Positions 1-11,679 are shown, numbered from the stretch's first letter. The stretch is DNA of 64,000 nucleotides from Cystobacter fuscus (GCF_002305875.1 NZ_CP022098.1:1488001-1552000); one strand, 5' to 3'. A program made the numbers and translations. Notes: generated by a model not told the origin, from the letters alone.

Positions 1-339
1 TGGCTGGGACACGAAGGTCCGCGCGTCCGGGGAGATCTCCTCGAGCCCGCGCAGCGCCCTCATGTCGATCACGATGCCCCCCTCGCACAGGGACTGGCCC
101 CGCATCGAGTGACCCATGGCGCGCGAGGCCACGGGAAGGTCCCGCGCGTGGGCGTAGCGCACGATGCGCGCGACCTCCTCGGCGTCACGGGGCCGCGCGA
201 GGGCCGCTGGCATCCGGCGCACGGTGCGGCCAAAGTCCTGGGAGTAGCGCTCCAGGACCTCCGGCTCCTCCGTGACTTCTCCTTCGAGCAGGCGCTGAAG
301 ATCCCTGACCAGGCTGGTGCGCGTCTTCTCCGACATCAT
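1..339 (-). CDS. FAD-binding oxidoreductase, N-terminal part (truncated by window edge)
   Basis: 113 codons are visible; the rest lies beyond position 1. After a short helical start the protein reads R-P-R-D-A-E-E-V, then S-R-A-M-G-H-S-M-R-G-Q and G-G-I-V-I-D-M. This is the layout of the FAD_binding_4 (PCMH/berberine-bridge, cytokinin-dehydrogenase-like) fold, in which the G-H-S-x-x-G-Q loop contacts the flavin. The start codon overlaps the stop of the glycosyltransferase gene (ATGA at 336-339), so the two are translationally coupled and the oxidase belongs to the lanthipeptide operon. A tailoring oxidation of the peptide or its sugar is inferred from context only. Covalent flavin attachment cannot be judged because the usual second attachment residue is outside the window. 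Confidence 0.75.
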   Translation of the reverse strand, partial: MMSEKTRTSLVRDLQRLLEGEVTEEPEVLERYSQDFGRTVRRMPAALARPRDAEEVARIVRYAHARDLPVASRAMGHSMRGQSLCEGGIVIDMRALRGLEEISPDARTFVSQP

Positions 340-1562
340 GTCTCTCCACGAGCAGGCGTCTGCGTGGCGCTCGGGGGCTCGCGCCACACGGGCGCGCGCC
401 GTCGGCCCAGCTCCTCCAATAGGTGGGCGGCCCGCTCGTGGCCGCCGGCCCGCTGGAAGGTGCTCTGGAGCCGGGCCGCCGCGGTCCGCAGCTCCTCACG
501 CCCGAGCAGCTCCCGCACCATCTCCAGGAGGCGCGCGGGCTCGGCCTCGTTGTCCTCGAGGTGCAGGCCCGCCTGGACGCGCACACAGCGCTGGGTGATA
601 TCCGGCTGCTCGGCACCGCCCCCGCCGGGAATCAGCAGCAGCGGCAGCCCGTGGGTGAGCGCGCCCAGCACGGACGTCGTCGTCGCGTTGGAGACGACGG
701 CGCGCGCGTGGGGCAGGATGGCTCCCTGGGACACGTGGGGTCGGACGAAGAAGTTTTCGGGCACCTGCTCCACCTCGCGGTCCATGCGCCCGACGGCGGC
801 CACCACGCGCACGGGCTGCCCCGTGAGTGCCTCCACCAGGCTGCGCCAGAAGGCCCGCTTGTTGAAGGCGCGCCCGGGCTGCACGTAGAGCAGGGGCTCG
901 CCCGACTCCCGCGCCGCCGCCAGCCACGTGTCCAGCTCCGCGTCGGGAGGACCCGGGGGCTCCCAGAGACAATCCCCCACGAAGTGCACCTGGGGCGGCA
1001 GTGTCTCCACGTTCCCCTCCAGCTCGGGCACGCTGCGCAGCAGGAACAGATCTCCGACGAGGGGACTCTCGTGGATGTCGTGCGCGCGCCGCTCCATGCC
1101 GAGCATCTCGCGCACCAGCGCGTAGGCCAGGTAGAAGCCCCGGTAGCGCCGCACCAGCTTTTCACGCTGCTCGGCCTCCTCGGGAGGAGGTCCGTGGGGC
1201 CACAGGTAGCTGGCCATCCCCACGGTGGCCACGGGCAGGGCCTTGCGCTCCGCGACGACGTACGGTCCGAGCGCGAGCTGCTGCGTCACGAGGACGTCCG
1301 CGGGGAAGCGCTCCAGGGCCCGCTCGACGTGGCGGACCTGGCGCATCGTGTCCATGGGGTGGCCGGAGATCTCCACGAGGAAGCTGCTGCCATCCGGCTC
1401 GCCGCGGGGGATGCGCTGGAAGCCCGCGCGCTCCACCACCCCGGCCAGTTTGAGGTCCGTGACGAAGGCGATCTCATGCCCCCGACGCCGCAGGGCCTCG
1501 GCGATCCCCAGGGACGAGAACAGGAAGCCGAAGTTGTCGAGCGAGCAGAAGAGGTACCTCAT
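336..1562 (-). CDS. GT-B glycosyltransferase (MGT/UDP-glycosyltransferase type)
   Basis: 408 aa. The N-terminus (M-R-Y-L-F-C-S, then F-L-F-S-S-L-G-I-A-E-A-L-R-R-R-G-H-E) is the classic acceptor-side start of a GT1/MGT glycosyltransferase. The C-terminal half has the donor-side pattern H-V-S-Q-G-A-I-L-P-H, then A-L-T-H-G-L-P-L-L-L-I-P and a Gly-rich loop before an AEQPD motif. The usual H-G-G-x-G-T motif is altered to S-N-A-T-T-T-S, which is unusual and may change donor binding. The gene overlaps lanM (ATGA, 1559-1562) and the downstream oxidase, so it is almost certainly co-translated with them. Glycosylation of the lanthipeptide is inferred. Trp is one possible acceptor, since the class III lanthipeptide NAI-112 is glycosylated on Trp and this core contains one Trp. 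Confidence 0.85.
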   Translation of the reverse strand: MRYLFCSLDNFGFLFSSLGIAEALRRRGHEIAFVTDLKLAGVVERAGFQRIPRGEPDGSSFLVEISGHPMDTMRQVRHVERALERFPADVLVTQQLALGPYVVAERKALPVATVGMASYLWPHGPPPEEAEQREKLVRRYRGFYLAYALVREMLGMERRAHDIHESPLVGDLFLLRSVPELEGNVETLPPQVHFVGDCLWEPPGPPDAELDTWLAAARESGEPLLYVQPGRAFNKRAFWRSLVEALTGQPVRVVAAVGRMDREVEQVPENFFVRPHVSQGAILPHARAVVSNATTTSVLGALTHGLPLLLIPGGGGAEQPDITQRCVRVQAGLHLEDNEAEPARLLEMVRELLGREELRTAAARLQSTFQRAGGHERAAHLLEELGRRRAPVWREPPSATQTPARGET

Positions 1563-4500
1563 GGCTCACGGGCTCCGATGGGGCGCGGCGGCTCGAACGC
1601 GAGGAGGGATGGGATGCGCGATGGCTCGGCGAGCCGGAGCAGCGCGTAGCCGATGCCAGCCAGTCCCGTCATGAGGCCGGGGGTCTCCACGCCCGTGGGC
1701 ACGCCACAGAGCAGTCCCACCCGGTCGAAGCTGGCGACGATGGCCCCGGCGAGCCGGTCGCACTCCCGTTCCAGCTCGGAGTCCGCCAACGTCCGCGCGG
1801 CGAGCGTCAGCACCTCCAGGTTGCCGAGGTCGCCATGGCACAGCGAGTGGTTGCCGCCGAAGCCCTGGACCCGCGTGGTCTCCAACGCCACCCGGAGCTC
1901 TTCGCGCACCTCGGGTGTATCCAGGTAGGGCAGCGAGAGCAGCCGCGCCAACCCGATGCCTGGAGCTCCATGACAGAGCGTGGTCATGAAGCCTCCCTCC
2001 GCGGCGACGGCCCGGAGATCCCTCCAGTTGCGTCGCTCGGGGGAGAACTCGGCGCGCTCGTACGCGAGGGCCCGCCGCGCCGCCTCCTGGAAGCGGGGGT
2101 CGCCCGTCTCGGTGCCGAGCGCCAGCAGGAACCAGGCGATGCCCGCGGCTCCATGCGAGAAGCCTGTCAGGGGCAGAGGGCCCAGGGGGGTCACCCACCC
2201 GAGTCCCTTCTCCGTCTTGTGCGCCGCCGTCAACAGACGCTCCCCACACTGGCGGGCCAGCTCGAGCGCTTGGGGCGAGGGGCGGCAGCGGTGCAGCTCG
2301 AGCATGAGCGTGCCGCAGCCCGCGACTCCGGTGAAGACATCGAGGGACTTGTCCTCGGCGATGAGCATCCTCAGCCGCCGGGACAGCAGTGCTTCGGCCT
2401 CGTCCCACAGCTCGGGCTGGTTCCAGAGGGCCCCCAGGTGCACCAGGGAGTGGATGACGCCCAGATCTCCCGTGGCCCCCAGGTTGCGCGGGGAGAAGGA
2501 GCCACCCCCCGTTCTCCGGCGCACCGTGGACAGGGTCTCGCGCGCCAGCGCCGTGTGCCGTGGCTGGCCCGTGAGGTGCCCCAGATAGGCCAGGAAGAGC
2601 ATGATGCCGGACAGGCCGCTGTACAGGTCCACGTCCAGCGACGACAGCGTCCAGTAGCGCTCGCCCACCGGGGTGAGGCCGAGCCATGAGGCGTCCGACT
2701 GACCCCGGAAGGCCAGTGCGGCGAGCCGGTCTCCGATGGCCTCCGCCTTTTCCAACAGCGGTTCCCGACGGGGGGCCTCGTGCGACACACTGAGCGCGTA
2801 GCTCGGCATCCGCCCGCCCCCCGCCATCACCGACAGCGAGGTGAAGGAGGCCCGGATGAACCAGAGCTGCTGAGTCAGCCCCTCCTCCGACAGCCGCTGG
2901 ATGCGGTCGCGAGAGAGCTCCAGTCCCGTGCGGGGGAAGAACTCCGCCAGCCGCTGGCCCGAGCTGCTCCACACATCGCGCGAGCCCGGCCGGGAGCCGA
3001 AGAACGGCACGTCGAGGTGCCAGAGATCCTCGTGCTCGTGGGGAATCAGCGGTCGGGTGTAGGGGATCTGATCGATCGTGCCCCAGAGCCGATCGAGGAA
3101 CCGCTCCAGGTCCAAGCCGTCGCGCAGGTGGTCCGGGTGGCAGCTCTCCCGCTCCAGCAGGTGGTAGAAGTACGTGGGCCGCAGGATGACGCGCGTCTCG
3201 TCCGGGGCGAACCGCTCGAGGGGCCCGTCGGGGGCGAGGAGCGCTTCGCGGTGCGCGAGCAGCAGCCGGTACATCTGGGAGAAGCCCTCCTGGAAGGGCT
3301 CGTTGAAGTCCAGGAAGTTGACGTCCTCGCCCTTCAGGGTGGGCCGGTTGGCGCTGGCGGCGACCTCCACCCGCCGACGCGTCATCCGCATCTCGTCCGT
3401 GCCGGTCTGTTCCCAGACCTGGGCGGCGCGGGGGGTGAGCTGCCCGGCCGTGGAGCCGAGTGCGCTGAAGTCGATTCCCTCCGAGCCCTCTCCCGACCAG
3501 CCGCGCTGGGGCAGCAGTCCCATGCGCATCACCGAGTCATCCTTCGCGCGCTCGGCCAGATCTTCCGCGCCCCGCGTCTCCCCCACGGCGAAGTGCGCAT
3601 GGAAGAGGGACTCCAGGTCCACCAGGCAGGGGTGCTCCCCCACGGCGATGATGTTCTCGAAGTGGACGTCTGTCGCTTCGAGCGCGTACATCAAGGCCAG
3701 CCAGCTCCCCAGCCGCGCGTAGAAGCGCGCCACCTCCTCGCGCGTGGCGCAGGAGCGCTGCGCCACGAACTCCATCCATCCGTACGCCCCCCGGTCGATC
3801 GCGCCCACGGGGCGCAGGTGTGGTGCCTCGCTCCTCGCGTTGAGCCACCCGACCAGCTGGTGGAAGTGCACGTCCGCCGCCAGCGAGCGCGGTTTGTAGA
3901 CGACGCGTGCTCCCGAGGCGAACGTGAGGATGGCCACCGTGCGGCCCCCGCGGTGCGCATCGCCCTTGCCGAGCTCACAGGCGCTCAGCCGATCCAGTGC
4001 GAGTGGGAGGCCGAGGCTCGCGCCGAGTTCCCGGTGGTCCGCCGCCAGCCGCTCCAGCATCTCCAGGGAGGAGATGAACCAGTTGTCCGCGCAGATGACG
4101 AGCCTGCGAGCCAGGACGGGATATTCGGCGAAGAGGGCGAGTGCCACTTCCCGCTGGCGCAGGCTCTCGGTGAAGCCGCGGAACCGCTCCTCCGCGTTGT
4201 CTCCCTGGAGCCGTTCCTCCTCGCGGGCGACGTTCAACTCCAGCGCCAGCGTTCGCGTCAGTTGCGAGAGCAGCCGCTTGCAGAGGAAGGGCATGCACAG
4301 GGTCGCCGCGCTCTCTGGCTCGAAAGGGGCGTCCGGGTGCCGTGTCACCACCGCGCCCAGGGCTCGCACCAGGCGGGCCCGGCTCTCGTCGATGAGCGGC
4401 TCGGCGAGGACCAGGAAGGTGGGCGTGGCGAGAGGCGATCCGGGAATGGCCCGCGCGGGTGGCTCCGCCGCCACCGGGTGCGTGTAGAGGCGGGCCAGTC

Positions 4501-4828
4501 GCGTCTGCCATTCGGGAGGGGGGCCGAGCCGCGCCGCCAGCGTCTCCGTGGACTCGCCGAGTAGCTGGAGCAGTTGCTCCTCGGTCGCGCCGTCCAGCGC
4601 GAGCCGTTGCGCGAAGAGCTCGTCGCGGTCCAGGGGTGCTCGGGAGCGCCACCGGGCAAGTCGGCGGGTGGCCCGGGCCTTGTCCTTCCCGGCTTCGGCC
4701 GTTGTGCCAGGCGGTGGTGGAGGGCCCAGGTGCCGGACACGCTCCGACAAGGTCGTCCCCTTGTGCCAGCCCGGACCTTCCGGGTTCACTCCCTCCACGA
4801 CCTCAGACGCCTCGGGGCGCATCGTCAT
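1559..4828 (-). CDS. lanM: class II lanthipeptide synthetase LanM
   Basis: 1089 aa from the chosen ATG. A GTG at 4855 would add nine residues, but the ATG at 4828 has AAGGA ten bases upstream. LanM dehydrates Ser/Thr of the precursor by phosphorylation and elimination, then closes thioether rings onto Cys. The N-terminal dehydratase (DUF4135) shows G-D-x-H-R-G-G-R-x-V, V-Y-K-P-R-S-L and D-V-H-F-E-N-I-I followed by L-V-D-L-E-S-L-F. The C-terminal LanC-like cyclase keeps the zinc ligands, one Cys in C-H-G-A-P-G (about residue 950) and Cys-His in S-L-C-H-G-D (about residue 997), plus G-F-S-H-G-A-A-G. The length is normal for LanM and no catalytic motif looks damaged. The gene lies downstream of lanA and overlaps both neighbours. 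Confidence 0.96.
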   Translation of the reverse strand: MTMRPEASEVVEGVNPEGPGWHKGTTLSERVRHLGPPPPPGTTAEAGKDKARATRRLARWRSRAPLDRDELFAQRLALDGATEEQLLQLLGESTETLAARLGPPPEWQTRLARLYTHPVAAEPPARAIPGSPLATPTFLVLAEPLIDESRARLVRALGAVVTRHPDAPFEPESAATLCMPFLCKRLLSQLTRTLALELNVAREEERLQGDNAEERFRGFTESLRQREVALALFAEYPVLARRLVICADNWFISSLEMLERLAADHRELGASLGLPLALDRLSACELGKGDAHRGGRTVAILTFASGARVVYKPRSLAADVHFHQLVGWLNARSEAPHLRPVGAIDRGAYGWMEFVAQRSCATREEVARFYARLGSWLALMYALEATDVHFENIIAVGEHPCLVDLESLFHAHFAVGETRGAEDLAERAKDDSVMRMGLLPQRGWSGEGSEGIDFSALGSTAGQLTPRAAQVWEQTGTDEMRMTRRRVEVAASANRPTLKGEDVNFLDFNEPFQEGFSQMYRLLLAHREALLAPDGPLERFAPDETRVILRPTYFYHLLERESCHPDHLRDGLDLERFLDRLWGTIDQIPYTRPLIPHEHEDLWHLDVPFFGSRPGSRDVWSSSGQRLAEFFPRTGLELSRDRIQRLSEEGLTQQLWFIRASFTSLSVMAGGGRMPSYALSVSHEAPRREPLLEKAEAIGDRLAALAFRGQSDASWLGLTPVGERYWTLSSLDVDLYSGLSGIMLFLAYLGHLTGQPRHTALARETLSTVRRRTGGGSFSPRNLGATGDLGVIHSLVHLGALWNQPELWDEAEALLSRRLRMLIAEDKSLDVFTGVAGCGTLMLELHRCRPSPQALELARQCGERLLTAAHKTEKGLGWVTPLGPLPLTGFSHGAAGIAWFLLALGTETGDPRFQEAARRALAYERAEFSPERRNWRDLRAVAAEGGFMTTLCHGAPGIGLARLLSLPYLDTPEVREELRVALETTRVQGFGGNHSLCHGDLGNLEVLTLAARTLADSELERECDRLAGAIVASFDRVGLLCGVPTGVETPGLMTGLAGIGYALLRLAEPSRIPSLLAFEPPRPIGAREP

Positions 4829-5924
4829 CAAGCACGTATCCTTGCTGGGCGTCACTGTAGTGCAGCCAGCGGTGCAGGGTCTCCAGGTAGACCTTGGCCT
4901 CCAGCGGCCTGCCAGGTTGGTGGACGACCTTGAGGTGGCTCAGCCGCCGCAAGAAGAGGCTCAGGCCACGTCCGTTCAGCTCGCGCGCGATGCGGCTCAG
5001 TTCCTTCGGCCAGGACTCCGGCTGGCTTCGCTGCTGCATGTGGCCCACCCAGGCGAGGATCGCCTCTCGCTTGTCGGGCAATCCCAATCCCCGCTCGACG
5101 AGGTGTCCCAGCAGCGTCTCCCAGCGGGGCTGGCTCGAGCCGATGGGTGCTTGGATGGCGAACTCGAAGCCGACCTTCTCGCCCAGGGTCTCGCCCACGT
5201 CGATGTCCAGGGAGAGCTGGTCCGCCAGCTCCGGGAGTCGCCCGAGCGCCGCCTCCACCTCACCGGGCTGGCCGGGCCAGCCGATGCGCTCGAGATAAGA
5301 CAGCCACCGAGGCAGGCTCGCGCCCGACAGGCACAGGCGCAAGGCGGACGTGCCCCGGGGGAACATGACCCCCACCGAGTAGATCCGTGCCTCTGGGGGC
5401 AGCGCTTCGTAACAGGCGGCGAGCCGTCGCCGGGTGCTGGCGGGGAGCCTGTCGCCGAGCAGCAGGTCCAGGCCCCGCTCGGCGAATTCCCGCGTCTGGC
5501 GCACCGGGCGTGCGAAGTCCATGAAGACGCAGGGCTCGGGCACCTCTGGCGGCGGGTGGTCGAGGTCGAACTCGAGGAAGACATCCATCACGCCCGTGTT
5601 CAGCGCGCCACCAGGCTTCCTCCACTCCCGGCAGAAGTCCCCGAGTGCCCGCCAGGTGGGGTGGTCGCGTGCCACTTCAGGGAGCGTGGGCGGGGTGTCG
5701 CCAAGGCCGAGCAAGGCATCACAACTTCCGTCCGTCAGCAGCAGGCGCGGCAGCAGGTCCACTCGGGACGCAGGGGAGCCGAGACGGCACTCGAACTGGA
5801 AACCCAGCACGGGCGGCAGCATGCGTGCGATGCGGCGCATGTCCTCGCGCACTGCCTCCGAGGCGAGCCGGACATCGAGATGGGAGTCGACCAACCTGAG
5901 GTTTACTTCCATCGACTCGTGCAT
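4803..5924 (-). CDS. unrecognised 373-aa protein encoded between lanA and lanM
   Basis: I do not recognise a family with certainty. The protein is soluble, with no signal peptide or membrane segment. Visible landmarks are V-F-L-E-F-D-L-D (about residue 117), a basic/aromatic stretch L-S-Y-L-E-R-I-G-W-P-G in the middle, L-S-L-D-I-D-V-G, and near the C-terminus H-L-K-V-V followed by A-K-V-Y-L and H-R-W-L. The alternating strands and the late H-L-K ... A-K-V-Y-L pair suggest an alpha/beta enzyme domain. It starts just after the stem-loop that follows lanA, and its 3' end overlaps the lanM start by 26 bp, so it must be produced with LanM. A role as tailoring enzyme or LanM partner is inference from position alone. 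A second ATG at 5912 is an alternative start. Confidence 0.8.
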   Translation of the reverse strand: MHESMEVNLRLVDSHLDVRLASEAVREDMRRIARMLPPVLGFQFECRLGSPASRVDLLPRLLLTDGSCDALLGLGDTPPTLPEVARDHPTWRALGDFCREWRKPGGALNTGVMDVFLEFDLDHPPPEVPEPCVFMDFARPVRQTREFAERGLDLLLGDRLPASTRRRLAACYEALPPEARIYSVGVMFPRGTSALRLCLSGASLPRWLSYLERIGWPGQPGEVEAALGRLPELADQLSLDIDVGETLGEKVGFEFAIQAPIGSSQPRWETLLGHLVERGLGLPDKREAILAWVGHMQQRSQPESWPKELSRIARELNGRGLSLFLRRLSHLKVVHQPGRPLEAKVYLETLHRWLHYSDAQQGYVLDDDAPRGV

Positions 5925-6041: not shown

Positions 6042-6218
6042 CTAGCAGCTTTCCCAACAGCACGACGACACCTGCTTACCGCCAGACAGCAGGCTGTCCA
6101 GGGCCTCGTCAGAGAGCTCCACGATACCGGCCGGGTTGGCCGGCAGCTGAGCGCGCTCCTCCTCGGTCAGGGACAGACGGAAATCCTCATCCTTCCACGC
6201 CTGGATCGTCTTCTTCAT
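6042..6218 (-). CDS. lanA: class II lanthipeptide precursor peptide, 58 aa
   Basis: A short gene with AAGGAG seven bases before its ATG. The leader (residues 1-47) has the mersacidin/lichenicidin-type pattern: W-K-D-E-D-F-R-L-S-L, then N-P-A-G-I-V-E-L, then L-S-D-E-A-L-D-S-L-L-S-G-G. It ends in the double glycine cut by C39 peptidase exporters. The predicted core is K-Q-V-S-S-C-C-W-E-S-C, 11 residues with three Ser, three Cys and one Trp. Ser51 and Ser52 sit directly before Cys53 and Cys54, and Ser57 directly before Cys58. Any thioether rings must therefore be very small or must join distant residues. The gene sits between the exporter and the 373-aa gene in a single transcription direction. 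I find no second precursor in the cluster. Confidence 0.93.
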   Translation of the reverse strand: MKKTIQAWKDEDFRLSLTEEERAQLPANPAGIVELSDEALDSLLSGGKQVSSCCWESC

Positions 6219-6275: not shown

Positions 6276-8546
6276 TCAGGCCCTTGCTCCTGGCTCCTGC
6301 GCCAGATCCGTTTCGCCCCGGGCCTCGCGTGGAGGCGTGGGGGTCGCATCCGCTGCCTGGCCACGGGCCAGGGCGGCATAAAGTCCATTGCGCTTCATGA
6401 GCGTGTCATGCGTTCCCTGCTCGACGAGCCGTCCCTGATCCAGCACGAGGATGAGGTCCGCGCTGCGCACGGTGCTCAACCGGTGCGCGATGATGATGCG
6501 TGTGCATGACATGATACCCAGGTTCGCGTCCACCTGCGCTTCCGTGGCGGTATCCAGATGGCTGGTGGCCTCGTCGAGCAGCAGCAGGGTCGGGCGCGAC
6601 GCCAGTGCGCGCGCCAGCGCCAGCCGTTGACGCTGACCGCCGGACAGCCCCGCTCCACCCTCGCCGATCCACGTCTCGTGGCGCATCGGCATCCGCTGGA
6701 CTTCCTGCTCCAGCGCCGCGAGGCGGAGGGCCTCCTCCACCTGGCCCAGTGCGATCCCGGGTGCGTTGAGCGAGACATTTTCCCGGAGCGAGCCGCTGAA
6801 GAGCAGCGGCTCCTGCATCACCACGCCGAACTGGGCGCGCACCTGGCGCACGTCCAGCTCCCGCAGCGGCAGACCGTCATAGAGGATGCGTCCCTCGGTG
6901 GGCTCGAGGAGTCCGAGCAGGAGGCTGCCCAGGGTGCTCTTGCCGCAGCCGCTGCGACCCACCACCGCCACCTTCTGTCCGGGCTCGATGGTGAAGGAGA
7001 GGCCCGAGAGCACCGGGGCGCTCCCCCTGCCATAGCGGAAGCCCACGTTCTCCAGGTGGATGTGCCCGCGCAGCCGCGGAGTGGGCCGGGTCGTCACCGG
7101 CTGGGGCTCTGGCTCGGCCTCGAGCACATCCAGGATGCGCGAGATGTGGGCCCCCGCCAGGTGCAACTGCTGCCCGGTGGTGACCAGCTGCGCCAGCGGC
7201 GTGAGGACGGCGGCGGCGATGGCGTTCAGCGCCAGCATCGTGCCCAGGCCCATCTTCCCGTCGAGCACCTGGATTGCTCCGAGCCACAGCAGCGCCAGCG
7301 GCGCGAAGGTGCGCAGGGCGTTGAGCAGCGCGTTGATGAAGGCCGTCAGATGGCCCCGCTCCAGCGACGCGTCGAGCTGCCGGTGGAACAGTGACGACCA
7401 GAAGCGCAGCGTCAGCTCCTCCGCCGCGGAGGCCTTGACCAGGGCCATTCCCTTGAAGGCCTGGACGGTGAAGCTCTGGAACTCGGCCTCGGTGGTGAGG
7501 CCACGGTTGAGCAGCTCGCGCATGCGGCCGGCCGTCATGAGCACCAGCATCAACTGGAGCACCCCCAGGCCGAACACCACCGCGCCGAAGAGCGGCGCCT
7601 GGAAGGAGAGGATGGCGAGGTAGGTGACCATCAGCGAGCCATCGAGCACGGTGGTCAGCGTCTGGTTGGTCAGCACCTCCCGGATCATCCCCGCGCTGCT
7701 CAGCCGCGCGAGCAGATCCCCGCTGGTGCGCTGCATGAAGAAGCGGAAGGGCAGCCGCAGCAGGTGGCCCAGCATTCCGAGCAACAGATGTTCATCGAAG
7801 CGTCCCTTGAGGGACACGAGCAGCACGTTGCGCAGGTAGCCCGTCACCGCCTGGGAGAGGGTGACGGCCACCATGCCCACGCCCAGCAGGGCCATCATGC
7901 TGAAGCCGCGCAGCGGCAGGACATGGTCCACCAGCACCTGGGTCATCAACGGCACTGCCAGCCCCAGCACCTGCAGGAGCAGCGAGGCGGCCAGGACCTG
8001 GAGCGCCAGCCCCTTCACGGCCCGGTTGCCCAGCAGCGGGCGCAGGAACGTGCTCCACGGGGAGGGCAGGGGTCCTCCGGTCATGAACTCCGGACCCGGC
8101 TCGAACGTCAGCACCACGCCCGTGAAGCCCTTGCTGAACTCCTGGGCGGACACGTGGCGCCGCCCCACCACCGGATCGAAGAGCTCCGCGCCCTTCGGCG
8201 ACCACTGTTCGATGACGACGAAGTGGTTGAAGTTCCAGTGGGCGATCGCCGGCAGCCGGATCTGCCCGAGGTGCTCGAGGTCGGTGGAGAAGACCTTGGC
8301 CCGGAGTCCCAGCTCGCGCGCCGCATCCACGAACATGCGGGGCCGGACTCCGTCCCGGGTCACGCCCAGCCGATCCTGGCACTCCGCCACGGAGGTGGGC
8401 CGTCCGGCGTGGGCGAGGATGCGCGCCAGACACGCCGCGCCACAGTCGGTCGCCGTGGCCTGGAGCACCAGCGGCGGGCGGGGAGGAAAGAGCCGCCGCC
8501 ACAAGCTGCTCGCAATAGAGGAGGGAGCGCGTCCAGATCCGGTCAT
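6276..8546 (-). CDS. lanT: peptidase-containing ABC exporter (C39 leader peptidase plus ATPase)
   Basis: 756 aa with three parts. Residues about 25-160 form a C39 protease with Cys35 in T-D-C-G-A-A-C-L, a His in N-H-F-V-V-I-E and an Asp 16 residues later in F-D-P-V-V-G-R. This is the complete triad of double-glycine leader peptidases. A membrane domain with about six helices follows (residues about 170-450). The C-terminal ATPase has Walker A G-R-S-G-C-G-K-S-T, signature L-S-G-G-Q-R-Q-R and Walker B L-L-L-L-D-E-A-T-S-H-L-D. It should cut the precursor after Gly-Gly and export the modified peptide across the inner membrane. It follows the HlyD-like gene with almost no gap, GAAGGGG serving as ribosome site, and precedes lanA. 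Confidence 0.95.
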   Translation of the reverse strand: MTGSGRAPSSIASSLWRRLFPPRPPLVLQATATDCGAACLARILAHAGRPTSVAECQDRLGVTRDGVRPRMFVDAARELGLRAKVFSTDLEHLGQIRLPAIAHWNFNHFVVIEQWSPKGAELFDPVVGRRHVSAQEFSKGFTGVVLTFEPGPEFMTGGPLPSPWSTFLRPLLGNRAVKGLALQVLAASLLLQVLGLAVPLMTQVLVDHVLPLRGFSMMALLGVGMVAVTLSQAVTGYLRNVLLVSLKGRFDEHLLLGMLGHLLRLPFRFFMQRTSGDLLARLSSAGMIREVLTNQTLTTVLDGSLMVTYLAILSFQAPLFGAVVFGLGVLQLMLVLMTAGRMRELLNRGLTTEAEFQSFTVQAFKGMALVKASAAEELTLRFWSSLFHRQLDASLERGHLTAFINALLNALRTFAPLALLWLGAIQVLDGKMGLGTMLALNAIAAAVLTPLAQLVTTGQQLHLAGAHISRILDVLEAEPEPQPVTTRPTPRLRGHIHLENVGFRYGRGSAPVLSGLSFTIEPGQKVAVVGRSGCGKSTLGSLLLGLLEPTEGRILYDGLPLRELDVRQVRAQFGVVMQEPLLFSGSLRENVSLNAPGIALGQVEEALRLAALEQEVQRMPMRHETWIGEGGAGLSGGQRQRLALARALASRPTLLLLDEATSHLDTATEAQVDANLGIMSCTRIIIAHRLSTVRSADLILVLDQGRLVEQGTHDTLMKRNGLYAALARGQAADATPTPPREARGETDLAQEPGARA

Positions 8547-8549
8547 GGC

Positions 8550-9167
8550 TCACCCCTTCAGGAAACGCGCGAGGATGGGGAGAGACGTGAGAAGGCGTTG
8601 CTGGCCCACCTCGACTTCGACACGAAAGGTGCTGCCGAGCCAATCCGTCGCGGAGAGCCCCTCCGTCCCAGGCGGCGCGAACACGGCGAAGGCGCACGCG
8701 GTGGGTCCGTTGGGACCTTGTCTGGAGTCGCCCTTCAGCCCGAAGCGCTCCAGCGCCGCCTCCGGACTCACCACGGACTGCTCCACCTCCTTGATATGGC
8801 TCTCCAGGCGAACGCCCTTTCCACTCACGTCCACCAGGAGTCGCTGGCCGGCCGCCAGGCGCGTACGTGCCTCGGGTGGAAAGAAGGCCACGAGCATCAG
8901 CCCTTCTCCGCCCGCTCCAGGCGATGGCGCCGCCGGCACGACGATGGCCGTGCCCGACACATGTGCCGGAACGGGAACCGCCACGAGTGCCACGCCGAAA
9001 GCCACACTCGCCAGCGAGGTGGCCCAGAGCAGCGCGAGGGTCCGGGACGAGGTGTATTGGGATGCACGGAAGTGCTCGCGGGCCTGGCGGTGGGCCGCGA
9101 TGGCTTCGGGGCGGTAGACAACCTGGTTCGCGGCCGACGTTCCGTTCTCAGGTGCGCCCTCGGCCAT
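8550..9167 (-). CDS. HlyD-like membrane-fusion adaptor, short form
   Basis: 205 aa from the ATG, which has GAAAGGGG about ten bases upstream; an in-frame GTG at 9194 has no comparable site. There is one transmembrane helix near residue 45 after a basic cytoplasmic stretch. The remainder is periplasmic and ends in a strand pattern like the beta-barrel part of HlyD/MFP adaptors (L-A-A-G-Q-R-L-L-V-D-V, later F-R-V-E-V-E-V-G-Q-Q-R-L-L). The usual lipoyl halves and long coiled coil are absent, so it is a compact adaptor. It is the first gene of the lanthipeptide operon, directly before the exporter, so it probably links the exporter to an outer-membrane channel. No outer-membrane channel gene is visible in the window. 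Confidence 0.75.
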   Translation of the reverse strand: MAEGAPENGTSAANQVVYRPEAIAAHRQAREHFRASQYTSSRTLALLWATSLASVAFGVALVAVPVPAHVSGTAIVVPAAPSPGAGGEGLMLVAFFPPEARTRLAAGQRLLVDVSGKGVRLESHIKEVEQSVVSPEAALERFGLKGDSRQGPNGPTACAFAVFAPPGTEGLSATDWLGSTFRVEVEVGQQRLLTSLPILARFLKG

Positions 9168-9484
9168 GTACGAAGCACCCCTTTCATGTTTCACGACCGG
9201 AACGTCACGGTGCTTCCGTGGAGATTAAGTCAAAAATCGGAAACTGAGAAGAGCACTCCGTGCTCTTGACCGGGCTGGAACCGTTACGGCGTGTGGCCCC
9301 CCCTGGTGCCTCCGCCTCGGGCACATCTCACGAGGTTCCACGGCGTCTTCGCTCCAGGCGCCAGACCGCGGCCATTTTTGCTCCCCCAAGCAGGTGTGGA
9401 GGCGAGGGGGGAGCCCCAGGCATCGAAGCCATCTTTCCGGGCCCGCCGGCCTCCTGGGGCCGGTGGGGCGGGACGCCAGTGACT
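9168..9484 (-). promoter_or_regulatory. upstream region of the lanthipeptide operon
   Basis: 317 bases without a gene, between the S9 peptidase stop and the adaptor start, with both genes reading leftward. On the minus strand there is a TTGACT hexamer about 55 bases before the adaptor ATG, which could be a -35 element. No convincing -10 follows, which is common in GC-rich bacteria. A perfect palindrome (9249-9267) lies just upstream of that hexamer. The remaining bases up to 9484 show no supported feature. Confidence 0.35.
9249..9267. promoter_or_regulatory. perfect palindrome AAGAGCAC-TCC-GTGCTCTT
   Basis: Two 8-base arms are separated by 3 bases, with no mismatch. It lies about 80 bases before the adaptor start codon and 17 bases upstream of the TTGACT element. 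This position suits an operator for a dimeric regulator of the lanthipeptide operon. It could instead end the S9 peptidase transcript, since a T-rich stretch (TTTTTG) follows on the minus strand after 13 bases. The short loop and late T-run make a terminator less convincing. Confidence 0.45.
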
Positions 9485-11419
9485 TCAGTTCACCGGGGTC
9501 GGGCCGCTGTCCCTCAGGTGCGCGTTCAGGAAGCCGAGCATCCGCGAGTAGGCCTCCACCTCGTTCTTCTTCTTGGTGAAGCCGTGGCCCTCGTCTGGGA
9601 AGATGACGTACTCCACCGGGATGCCGTTCTTCTTCACCGCCTGCACGATTTCATCCGACTCGGGCTGGATGACGCGCGGATCATTGGCGCCCTGTAGGAC
9701 GAGCAGTGGCTTGGAGATCTTCTCCGCGTGGAAGAGGGGTGAGATGTCGCGCAGCATCTGCTCCTGCTTCGCCGGGTCGCCGATCTCCTTGTAGAGGGCC
9801 TCACGCTGGCTCTCCCACCAGGGCGGGATGCTCTGGAGCGTGCGCAGCCAGTTGGAGACACCGAAGATGTCGATGCCCGCCTTGAAGGCATCCGGGTGGA
9901 AGGCGAGCGCGGCCAGCGTCATGTAGCCACCGTAGCTGCCACCGGCGATGCCGATGCGCTCGGCGTCCACGTAGGGCAGACTGGCCAGGTACTTCCGGGC
10001 CTCGACGCAGTCCAGCAGCGGCTCGTGGCCGTGCTTCTGGTCATCCGCGGCGAAGAAGCTCTTGCCATAGCCGGAGCTGCCGCGGTTGTTGATGCCCAGC
10101 ACGACGTAGCCGTGGTTGACGAGGTATTGGATGACCGGGGAGTAGCCCTTGCGCGTCTGCCCCCCGGGGCCGCCGTGCACCCAGACAATGGCGGGTGCCT
10201 TGGCGTCGGCGGTGGCCTGATGCGGTTTGAAGAGGATGTTGGGAATCTCCATCCCGTCGAAGGACTTGAAGCGCACCACCTGGGCCTCGACGAGATCCTC
10301 CGGGTCCATCTGCTTGTTCCTCGCGTCGGTGAGACGGCTGACCTTCTTCGTGCCGAAGTCGTAGACGAAGAGGTTCGACGGGGAACGATCCCCATTGTGG
10401 TAGAAGGCCATCCGCTTCTCGCTGTCCGAGATGCGCACCGAGGTGATGTCCCCCGCGGGCAGCTGCGGCAGCTCCAGGAGCTTGCCTGTCTTCTGATCAT
10501 GCACGCGGATGACGGTGCGGCCGTCCTCGTTGATGGCGGTGACGCGGAAGCCGCCCTTGCGCGAGAAGTACGTGTACATCACGTCCCAGTCGGCGCGCTC
10601 CACCTCCTCCATCACTCCGGTCGTCAGCGTGTAGCGGGCCACGCGCTTGAACTCGGAGCCCTGGTTCGTGAGGAAGTAGAGGGCGCTGGAGTTCGGATCG
10701 AAAGAGCTCGCCTGGAAGAACGCGTCGCCCTGGTGCGGGGTGATGTGCTTGAGTTCCTTCTTCTCCACGTCGTAGAGGTGGATGTCCGCGTCGTTGGTGG
10801 TCCGCACCTTGTTGAAGGCGATCCACCTTCCATCGGGCGAGACCGCCTCGAAGGAGAGACCGGTGTCGTTCTGGTAGACGAGCGTGCGCGCATACGTCTT
10901 CGCGTCGTAGCGGTAGAGGTCGAAGAACCGCGCGTCGCGCTCGTTGGTGAGGACGTAGAAGGCCGAGTCGTCATCGCTCCAGCTCACGAACATGGCCTTC
11001 AGCTTGTCGCCGGGCGAGAGGTCGCGCTCCTTGCCATCCGGAGTGCGCACGAAGAGGTGGTTGGCTTCGTTGCCACCCTGGTCGCGCGTGAAGAGGATGC
11101 GCTCGTCCTTGGGGAAGAAGCTCACGGCGTAGGTGGAGTCCGTCTTCGAGTGGGTGAGCGCCTTCGCCTTCCCGCCACTGAGGGGCAGGGTGTATGCGTT
11201 GAAGATGCCACTCTCGTTGGAGGAAAAGAGGACGCGCTTCTCGTCCGGCGAGAAGGAGGCGCCGGAGAGCTTCGTCGTCGTCATGAACTGCTCGACGGTG
11301 TACTGCTTGGAGGGCCGGGGGACAGCCGGGGCCGGTGTCGCGTTGGGCGCAGCGAGTGCGAGGGCGGGCACGAGCGTGGCCGCGGCCAGTACTCGCACGA
11401 GGGTGGACCGGAACTGCAT
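9485..11419 (-). CDS. exported S9-family prolyl oligopeptidase / acylaminoacyl peptidase
   Basis: 644 aa. I use the ATG at 11419 because it has GGAG five bases upstream and opens a clear signal peptide (M-Q-F-R-S-T-L-V-R-V-L-A-A-A, A-L-A-A cleavage region). The N-terminal half is a WD40-like beta propeller with repeated S-P-D-x-x-R-x-x-F/A-x-x units. The C-terminal alpha/beta hydrolase holds H-G-G-P-G-G near its start, the nucleophile in G-G-S-Y-G-G-Y-M, the Asp in G-A-N-D-P-R-V and the His in D-E-G-H-G-F. Peptidases of this family release dipeptides or acylated residues from short peptides in the periplasm. The gene is separate from the lanthipeptide operon, though a role in peptide turnover nearby cannot be excluded. 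Confidence 0.93.
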   Translation of the reverse strand: MQFRSTLVRVLAAATLVPALALAAPNATPAPAVPRPSKQYTVEQFMTTTKLSGASFSPDEKRVLFSSNESGIFNAYTLPLSGGKAKALTHSKTDSTYAVSFFPKDERILFTRDQGGNEANHLFVRTPDGKERDLSPGDKLKAMFVSWSDDDSAFYVLTNERDARFFDLYRYDAKTYARTLVYQNDTGLSFEAVSPDGRWIAFNKVRTTNDADIHLYDVEKKELKHITPHQGDAFFQASSFDPNSSALYFLTNQGSEFKRVARYTLTTGVMEEVERADWDVMYTYFSRKGGFRVTAINEDGRTVIRVHDQKTGKLLELPQLPAGDITSVRISDSEKRMAFYHNGDRSPSNLFVYDFGTKKVSRLTDARNKQMDPEDLVEAQVVRFKSFDGMEIPNILFKPHQATADAKAPAIVWVHGGPGGQTRKGYSPVIQYLVNHGYVVLGINNRGSSGYGKSFFAADDQKHGHEPLLDCVEARKYLASLPYVDAERIGIAGGSYGGYMTLAALAFHPDAFKAGIDIFGVSNWLRTLQSIPPWWESQREALYKEIGDPAKQEQMLRDISPLFHAEKISKPLLVLQGANDPRVIQPESDEIVQAVKKNGIPVEYVIFPDEGHGFTKKKNEVEAYSRMLGFLNAHLRDSGPTPVN

Positions 11420-11679
11420 GCATTCTCCGCGTTGGTGGGAAGTGGGGTGACCAACACCGTACGAAACACCCTCCTCCTGATTTCCCGCCAGTCCCCCCCT
11501 GAGAATCTTCCTGCCTTCCGGTCTTCGACGCTGCGGCGATAGGCCAGCGCCACTCGGGCAGCCGGCACCGGCTCGAAACCAGGGAAGTGCGGGGATGAAC
11601 AGGGCCCCAGTGTATTCCCTATCCCGTAGGCGATAAATCCCTGATGGTTTCATTCACTACAAACCAGGAGTTTGCAATC

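Follow-up and report, generated by a model that had tools for sequence, protein, structure and literature searches.

Prenylation of tryptophan in class II lanthipeptides has already been documented in cyanobacteria (PMC12715784; PMC13290415). One example is MppC, encoded by the mpp cluster of Moorena producens, which depends on the leader to geranylate a single Trp in its class II lanthipeptide substrate (PMC12715784). NctPC is described in a review as an abba-barrel prenyltransferase, which has low similarity to the cyanobactin enzymes and is fused to an MstE-like cyclase (PMC13290415); according to the same review, it geranylgeranylates Trp before cyclisation (Hubrich et al. 2024, via review PMC13290415). 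The present analysis concerns an operon in a 64,000-nt stretch of the Cystobacter fuscus genome, referred to as the window (NZ_CP022098.1:1488001-1552000; G000:C1:1488001-1552000; the source genome is a single contig of 12.35 Mb). The operon encodes a class II lanthionine synthetase (LanM) and its precursor peptide (LanA), along with a flavin adenine dinucleotide (FAD) oxidase, a glycosyltransferase (GT)-like protein and a 373-aa protein, here named D373. Its product is probably a class II lanthipeptide that is prenylated on Trp by D373, with additional oxidase and GT-like steps; what is new is the myxobacterial variant and the newly delineated D373 family.

Common to the mpp cluster and the window locus are a LanM, a precursor with a leader and a soluble enzyme for which prenylation of the core Trp is proposed. 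They differ in that the leader in the window is short and of the mersacidin type, whereas that of mpp is Nif11-like, and in that the window adds a GT and a FAD oxidase. NctPC, as described in the review, resembles the relatives of D373 in that a Trp-directed enzyme is paired with or fused to an MstE-like cyclase, both arrangements being seen; in contrast, the D373 of the window stands alone, with no adjoining cyclase. The cyanobactin prenyltransferases (PagF, LynF/TruF/PatF, TIGR04445) are alike in the proposed chemistry, but their similarity to D373 in sequence or profile is undetectable. No leader is needed by these enzymes. The glycosylated lanthipeptides NAI-112 and cacaoidin belong to other lanthipeptide classes and come from actinomycete hosts. 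Their clusters also hold a glycosyltransferase (for cacaoidin, PMC8068269), whereas the GT of the window has an altered donor motif and glycosylation is only predicted. Plant-type cytokinin dehydrogenases share with the window oxidase the FAD_binding_4 domain, the cytokinin-binding domain and the GHSxxGQ motif; the window enzyme differs from them in lying in an operon for a ribosomally synthesised and post-translationally modified peptide (RiPP), its presumed substrate being a modified peptide.

D373 and its tryptophan-bearing partners

The comparison rests directly on gene content, gene order, co-occurrence, family relationships and co-conservation of Trp. D373 was found together with LanA, and with LanM where the contig reaches that far, in nine myxobacterial genomes, the window included. 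It directly adjoins LanM, with LanA, in the window, in Hyalangium versicolor (L034/L094), which belongs to the family of the window's source, and in L043 (G038), L044 (G016), L096 (G141), L097 (G149), L098 (G142) and L101 (G148); in L095 (G129) it has LanA next to it, together with the first part of a LanM truncated by the contig edge. The FAD oxidase is present in eight of the nine D373-LanA loci, the exception being L095. The initial annotation had described lanM as flanked by three operon genes with overlapping starts and stops, and its reading depended on their keeping company with lanM in relatives. All three are present, on the minus strand, and they do co-occur; the genes form a dedicated tailoring set, of which D373 is the most conserved tailoring gene. 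In the LanM tree the linkage with D373 is spread over several lineages, a scatter which points to modular recruitment.

The precursors agree in their cores. In all 12 LanAs whose clusters hold D373, a member of the GT subfamily or both, S-C is followed after one or two residues by Trp, whereas Trp is present in the core of 6 of 30 LanAs from other LanM clusters (judged by eye; Fisher p 1.7e-6, indicative only, as the sequences are related and non-independent). The core Trp is hence likely to be the acceptor of the modification, and the earlier proposal of the sole core Trp as candidate acceptor is strengthened by its invariance.

Relatives of D373 were found in 16 of 98 close genomes and in 30 of 195 Myxococcota genomes, and three are present in the genome of the window itself. 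Further relatives, sharing 26-36% identity with the D373 of L037, are carried by plasmids from Nostoc, Pseudanabaena, Acaryochloris and Azospirillum; none was found in viral-contig scans or a phage collection. A role purely as an accessory of lanM was rejected, since many D373 loci have no LanM. D373 mostly adjoins peptides or small proteins with Trp just after the leader. At L037-L042, the order is short peptide, D373, DUF2378 protein and alpha/alpha protein, with the peptide ending in GG(or GE)-AQELS[A/N/K]TQAW[E/Q] at L037 and L039-L042, and a matching leader hit at L038. The alpha/alpha protein of L038 matches PDB 8pak over its full length (776 bits), to which it appears essentially identical, matches MstE at 1e-25 and keeps the DADS motif; by their similarity, the alpha/alpha proteins of L037-L042 are assigned to the MstE-like monodomain class II terpene cyclases.

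In L050, L099 and L100, D373 is present twice, together with a peptide ending ...GSCTWGANCGK, a protein resembling the cyclases and a 2-oxoglutarate (2OG) enzyme of the WelO5 family (4e-80), a family that acts on prenylated indole alkaloids. The core SCTWGANCGK is identical across these three genomes (L050:12608-12733, L099:10622-10750, L100:10508-10669); L099 has a LanM (TIGR03897, 651 bits) some 4 kb further downstream, and in L050 and L100 LanM matches lie on that side too. L046-L048, L102, L103 and L106 encode fusion proteins: D373 makes up the C-terminal half, and the N-terminal half shows a weak resemblance to the cyclase (hhalign E 1e-4, 76 columns). Peptides ending [S/G]DGW[I/F] lie near the fusions in L047, L048, L102, L103 and L106. 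Such fusion clusters, in which the peptides end in GDGDGWI, also encode a metallo-beta-lactamase-fold-like protein and two radical S-adenosylmethionine (SAM)/SPASM proteins (L102:2867-7041), and look like a separate RiPP class.

A further arrangement is seen in L045, L049, L051-L058, L060 and L062, where D373 follows a 164-210-aa protein whose N-terminal segment is LigA-like (PF07746, 2e-5 in L052) and is succeeded by a TIG-like domain. All 12 of these proteins have an invariant Trp at residue 66-75, the leader-TIG junction, and it is the sole Trp in 8 of them; it is possible that they are Trp-prenylated proteins instead of small RiPPs. The copy of this pair in the genome of the window is L056:8833-10399. 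Such pairs often lie downstream of a 1,260-1,300-aa protein resembling a Ser/Thr kinase with repeats. An 88-aa peptide ending NTFW (L061) is a further partner with Trp, and the forms ...GGAQELSATQAWE and ...EGSCTWGANCGK are counted among the Trp-bearing partners as well. The cyanobacterial homologues lie in LanM/Nif11/NHLP clusters: in Pseudanabaena, D373 is fused to a 2OG domain and accompanied by a LanM and by a Nif11-like precursor with the ending PPIKW, and in Acaryochloris D373 is near a Nif11-like peptide ending RYWH. In Azospirillum, TfuA- and YcaO-like genes were recognised by eye near D373. No partner peptide was identified at L059, L104 and L132; every partner that was identified has Trp, as with NctPC, apart from that of a Nostoc locus taken up below. 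Association with or fusion to a cyclase, also as with NctPC, is seen in the relatives (L037-L042, L050/L099/L100 and the fusions) and not in the window.

On the basis of the Trp-bearing partners, the leader-bearing substrates, the separate or fused cyclase-like partners and the accompanying prenyl-indole tailoring enzymes, D373 is, by analogy, most probably a Trp prenyltransferase. We infer the prenylation, the oxidation, the glycosylation and the order of the steps as follows. LanM would dehydrate the core Ser and build thioether rings in KQVSSCCWESC, and D373, guided by the leader, would move a prenyl group (C5-C20) from its diphosphate onto the indole of Trp55. The cytokinin-dehydrogenase-like oxidase would then oxidise or oxidatively cyclise the prenylated Trp; the GT-like protein would attach a sugar or, its motif being altered, serve in some other accessory role; and the C39-ABC exporter would cleave at GG and export the product. 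As far as the operon shows, the product would be left uncyclised by a terpene cyclase.

A wider proposal is put forward tentatively and appears somewhat doubtful: D373 could be a large undescribed family of leader-guided Trp prenyltransferases serving lanthipeptides and several new myxobacterial peptide classes, including folded proteins with a LigA leader, a single Trp and a TIG domain (bacterial protein Trp prenylation), and in the window it would act with the oxidase and GT to give a prenylated, oxidised and glycosylated Trp. With D373 read as a Trp prenyltransferase, an annotation-free family across Myxococcota and cyanobacteria gains a testable function, and Trp-prenylated lanthipeptides are predicted beyond cyanobacteria, with extra oxidase and GT steps. 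The LigA-leader/TIG partners suggest that small bacterial proteins, too, may be prenylated on Trp. Ring-constrained peptides that carry a lipid have antibiotic interest, and D373-type enzymes would be leader-programmed tools for Trp lipidation.

The oxidase and the glycosyltransferase-like protein

The oxidase had initially been taken for a berberine-bridge-like enzyme. It was found to have the domains FAD_binding_4 (1.7e-34) and Cytokin-bind (PF09265, 4.5e-12), as in the cytokinin-dehydrogenase type of VAO/PCMH enzyme, and the motif GHSxxGQ was read in its sequence. Its best PDB matches are cytokinin oxidases (4ml8, 1.2e-46). In view of PF09265 and these PDB matches, the assignment as a berberine-bridge oxidase with a BBE domain was replaced by a cytokinin-dehydrogenase-like one. 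The oxidase of H. versicolor is close to that of the window (69% identity), and a second lineage is found in L043, L096, L097, L101 and L148, with FAD_binding_4 in both members scanned (L043 and L096). In the oxidase tree the two RiPP lineages lie apart, and the window lineage lies apart from the general myxobacterial oxidase; the placement of L044 is unsure. Two independent recruitments of this kind suggest that the oxidation step may have been selected. The substrate of cytokinin dehydrogenase carries an N-isopentenyl group, and because that enzyme acts on an isopentenyl-amine, it is plausible by analogy that the window oxidase acts on a prenyl-Trp unit.

The GT matches a GT-B family (PF06722, EryCIII-like_C, 36.7 bits against a cut-off of 31.7), and its matches in the PDB are EspG2, CalG4 and CalG1. 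The altered donor motif that had been noted in it proved to be a property of the whole subfamily: HGGxGT is SNATTT in the window protein and is similarly replaced in each of the 10 members aligned, and the N-terminal base position is occupied by a residue other than His in every aligned member. What the subfamily does keep is a GGEQ motif close to the donor site, along with many invariant residues. As neither the usual donor motif nor the base His is there, sugar transfer is a tentative assignment; the GT may use another donor or mechanism, or may be non-catalytic.

Members of this subfamily (E up to 1e-40) were found in 11 places in 184 genomes, all of them RiPP clusters. Ten are lanM/lanA clusters, and the remaining one (L147) is a different RiPP-like cluster. 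On a short contig, L148 (G130), the GT occurs together with a FAD oxidase, LanA and exporter. It is absent from two D373-LanM-oxidase loci, namely L034 (H. versicolor; LanM 76% identity) and L044. Its absence from these otherwise conserved clusters and the subfamily-wide loss of donor motif and base His would be accounted for if the GT-like protein were a pseudo-enzyme or had an altered function (chaperone, immunity or other ligand binding), the product then having no sugar. This is a substantial possibility that falls a little short of being likely, as the retention of GGEQ and the invariant residues fits an active enzyme with a different donor or mechanism.

The opposite proposal is that the product is primarily a glycosylated lanthipeptide, in which the GT sugars Trp (or Ser/Cys), the FAD protein oxidises it and D373 is accessory. 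The confinement of the subfamily to RiPP clusters, its company with lanM/lanA in 10 of 11 places and the GT-B fold family match are in line with this, as is a locus (L119) that retains LanA(Trp)-LanM-GT without D373 or oxidase. It is nevertheless considered rather questionable: the GT is missing from L034 and L044, which have D373 and the oxidase, HGGxGT and the base His are replaced across the subfamily, and D373 has terpene-cyclase contexts without any GT. Of the glycosylated lanthipeptide foreseen in the initial annotation, the dedicated GT stands, while glycosylation itself, given the missing residues and the two loci without GT, is not the main story; it is possible for this product, less certainly than had been supposed.

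Two loci with members of the GT subfamily have further features. The L147 cluster (L147:6655-12122; G149:C9) has precursor-like peptides with the leader NIDDLDIEELERRLEMA and Cys/Thr-rich cores, as well as a 631-aa protein with a SQHop_cyclase-like domain and a PqqD/M50 protein. At L146:8255-9205 (G129:C6), the gene for a terpene-cyclase-like protein (316 aa, DLDD motif) is convergent to a GT adjoining a LanM ended by the contig edge; the D373/LanA half of this locus may be contig C434 (L095), a candidate pairing.

Weighing the proposed prenylation by D373

D373 was stated in the initial annotation to have no recognised family, and this holds for both Pfam and NCBIfam. A Pfam PSP match (0.004, below the cut-off) was judged to be chance, as one of 23 members matches. 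Across 33 diverse members, E45, R47, D56, W101, E118, D120, R190, R196, W216, D242, K332, K344 and Y346 are invariant or nearly so; all of these apart from W101, W216 and D242 make up the conserved R/K/Y/E/D set counted in favour of a prenyltransferase.

Several results weigh against this assignment. D373 is likened to MppC and NctPC by their descriptions and not by sequence. No chain was matched in a PDB profile search with 23 members, and hhalign of 33 members against a TruF-type profile (from aligned PDB fragments) gave no similarity, so that abba (PT-barrel) similarity in sequence or profile appears in none of the NCBIfam, PDB and TruF-type comparisons. An AlphaFold2 model based on a two-sequence alignment (window and H. 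versicolor) reached a predicted local distance difference test score (pLDDT) of 42 and suggested a helix-strand-strand-helix order in the first half only. No terpene cyclase adjoins D373 in the window, and no Trp was seen in the NHLP peptides near the D373 of Nostoc UHCC 0926 (L131), which is the one clear exception among the partners. In addition, L119, from the genus of the window, has LanM, GT and a LanA with the Trp core and lacks both D373 and the oxidase; hence Trp is not conserved solely because of D373. The LanM of L119 is nested among D373-linked LanMs in the tree, from which a loss of D373 and oxidase in that lineage is likely.

It was therefore considered whether D373 performs other Trp chemistry (hydroxylation, halogenation or cross-linking) or binds the leader as a partner without catalytic activity, for which the lack of any family or PDB match and the low pLDDT leave room, the co-conservation of Trp being compatible with any Trp chemistry. 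This is unlikely: no cofactor motif was found in D373, such a role would hardly account for the terpene-cyclase-like proteins with which it is repeatedly paired or fused, and its invariant charged residues speak against a mere scaffold. Prenylation of the core Trp by D373 is accordingly preferred. That the genes are chance neighbours and no tailoring set is highly improbable; nothing in its favour was found, and it is refuted by overlapping reading frames and a co-occurrence conserved across several genera.

Layout of the operon and neighbouring genes

From right to left on the minus strand, the operon consists of a membrane-fusion-like gene, the C39-ABC exporter, lanA, D373, lanM, the GT and the FAD oxidase (Table 1). 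The GT and LanM genes overlap by 4 nt and the LanM and D373 genes by 26-53 nt, the start of the oxidase (ATG at 339) likewise shares 4 nt with the end of the GT, and about 117 nt separate lanA from D373.

Table 1. Features of the operon in window coordinates
Feature	Position	Strand	Remarks
FAD oxidase, N-terminal part	1..339	-	cytokinin-dehydrogenase-like; runs left to about window position -1050
GT-B glycosyltransferase	336..1562	-	RiPP-dedicated subfamily; SNATTT replaces HGGxGT; canonical base His absent
LanM class II lanthionine synthetase	1559..4855	-	start 4855 (GTG) or, more likely, 4828
D373 (373-aa protein, proposed Trp prenyltransferase)	4803..5924	-	family defined here, and contexts
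LanA precursor, 58 aa	6042..6218	-	TIGR03898 5.2e-19
Core Trp55 codon, proposed acceptor	6054..6056	-	invariance in linked precursors
C39 peptidase/ABC exporter	6276..8546	-	Peptidase_C39 (PF03412) 1e-29, ABC_membrane, ABC_tran
Small membrane-fusion-like accessory protein	8550..9194	-	homologues adjoin transporter in other loci

The oxidase reading frame leaves the window. The region left of position 1, where the rest of the operon was to be sought, completes it (G000:C1 about 1486951-1488387; L003 8948-10387); it is the last gene of the operon, and the neighbour beyond is convergent. LanM is a class II synthetase (TIGR03897, 960 bits; DUF4135 and LANC_like domains). LanA belongs to the mersacidin family and reads MKKTIQAWKDEDFRLSLTEEERAQLPANPAGIVELSDEALDSLLSGG/KQVSSCCWESC, a GG-type leader of the mersacidin type (...LLSGG) followed by a core with Ser and Cys, and the exporter has the C39 peptidase expected of a class II lanthipeptide cluster. 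A Pfam scan of the membrane-fusion-like protein gave nothing above the cut-off; homologues lie beside the transporter in L034, L044, L096-L098, L101 and L148. Directly upstream of the exporter, on the same strand, is a gene of the S9 prolyl-oligopeptidase family (9485-11653), which probably lies outside the cluster, as it is not at this place in H. versicolor. The genome has a second LanM (L063:9020-12588; G000:C1 about 9095000-9098600), without D373 or GT, whose precursor has the core GILEPTSAYCTPCPPKYCY.

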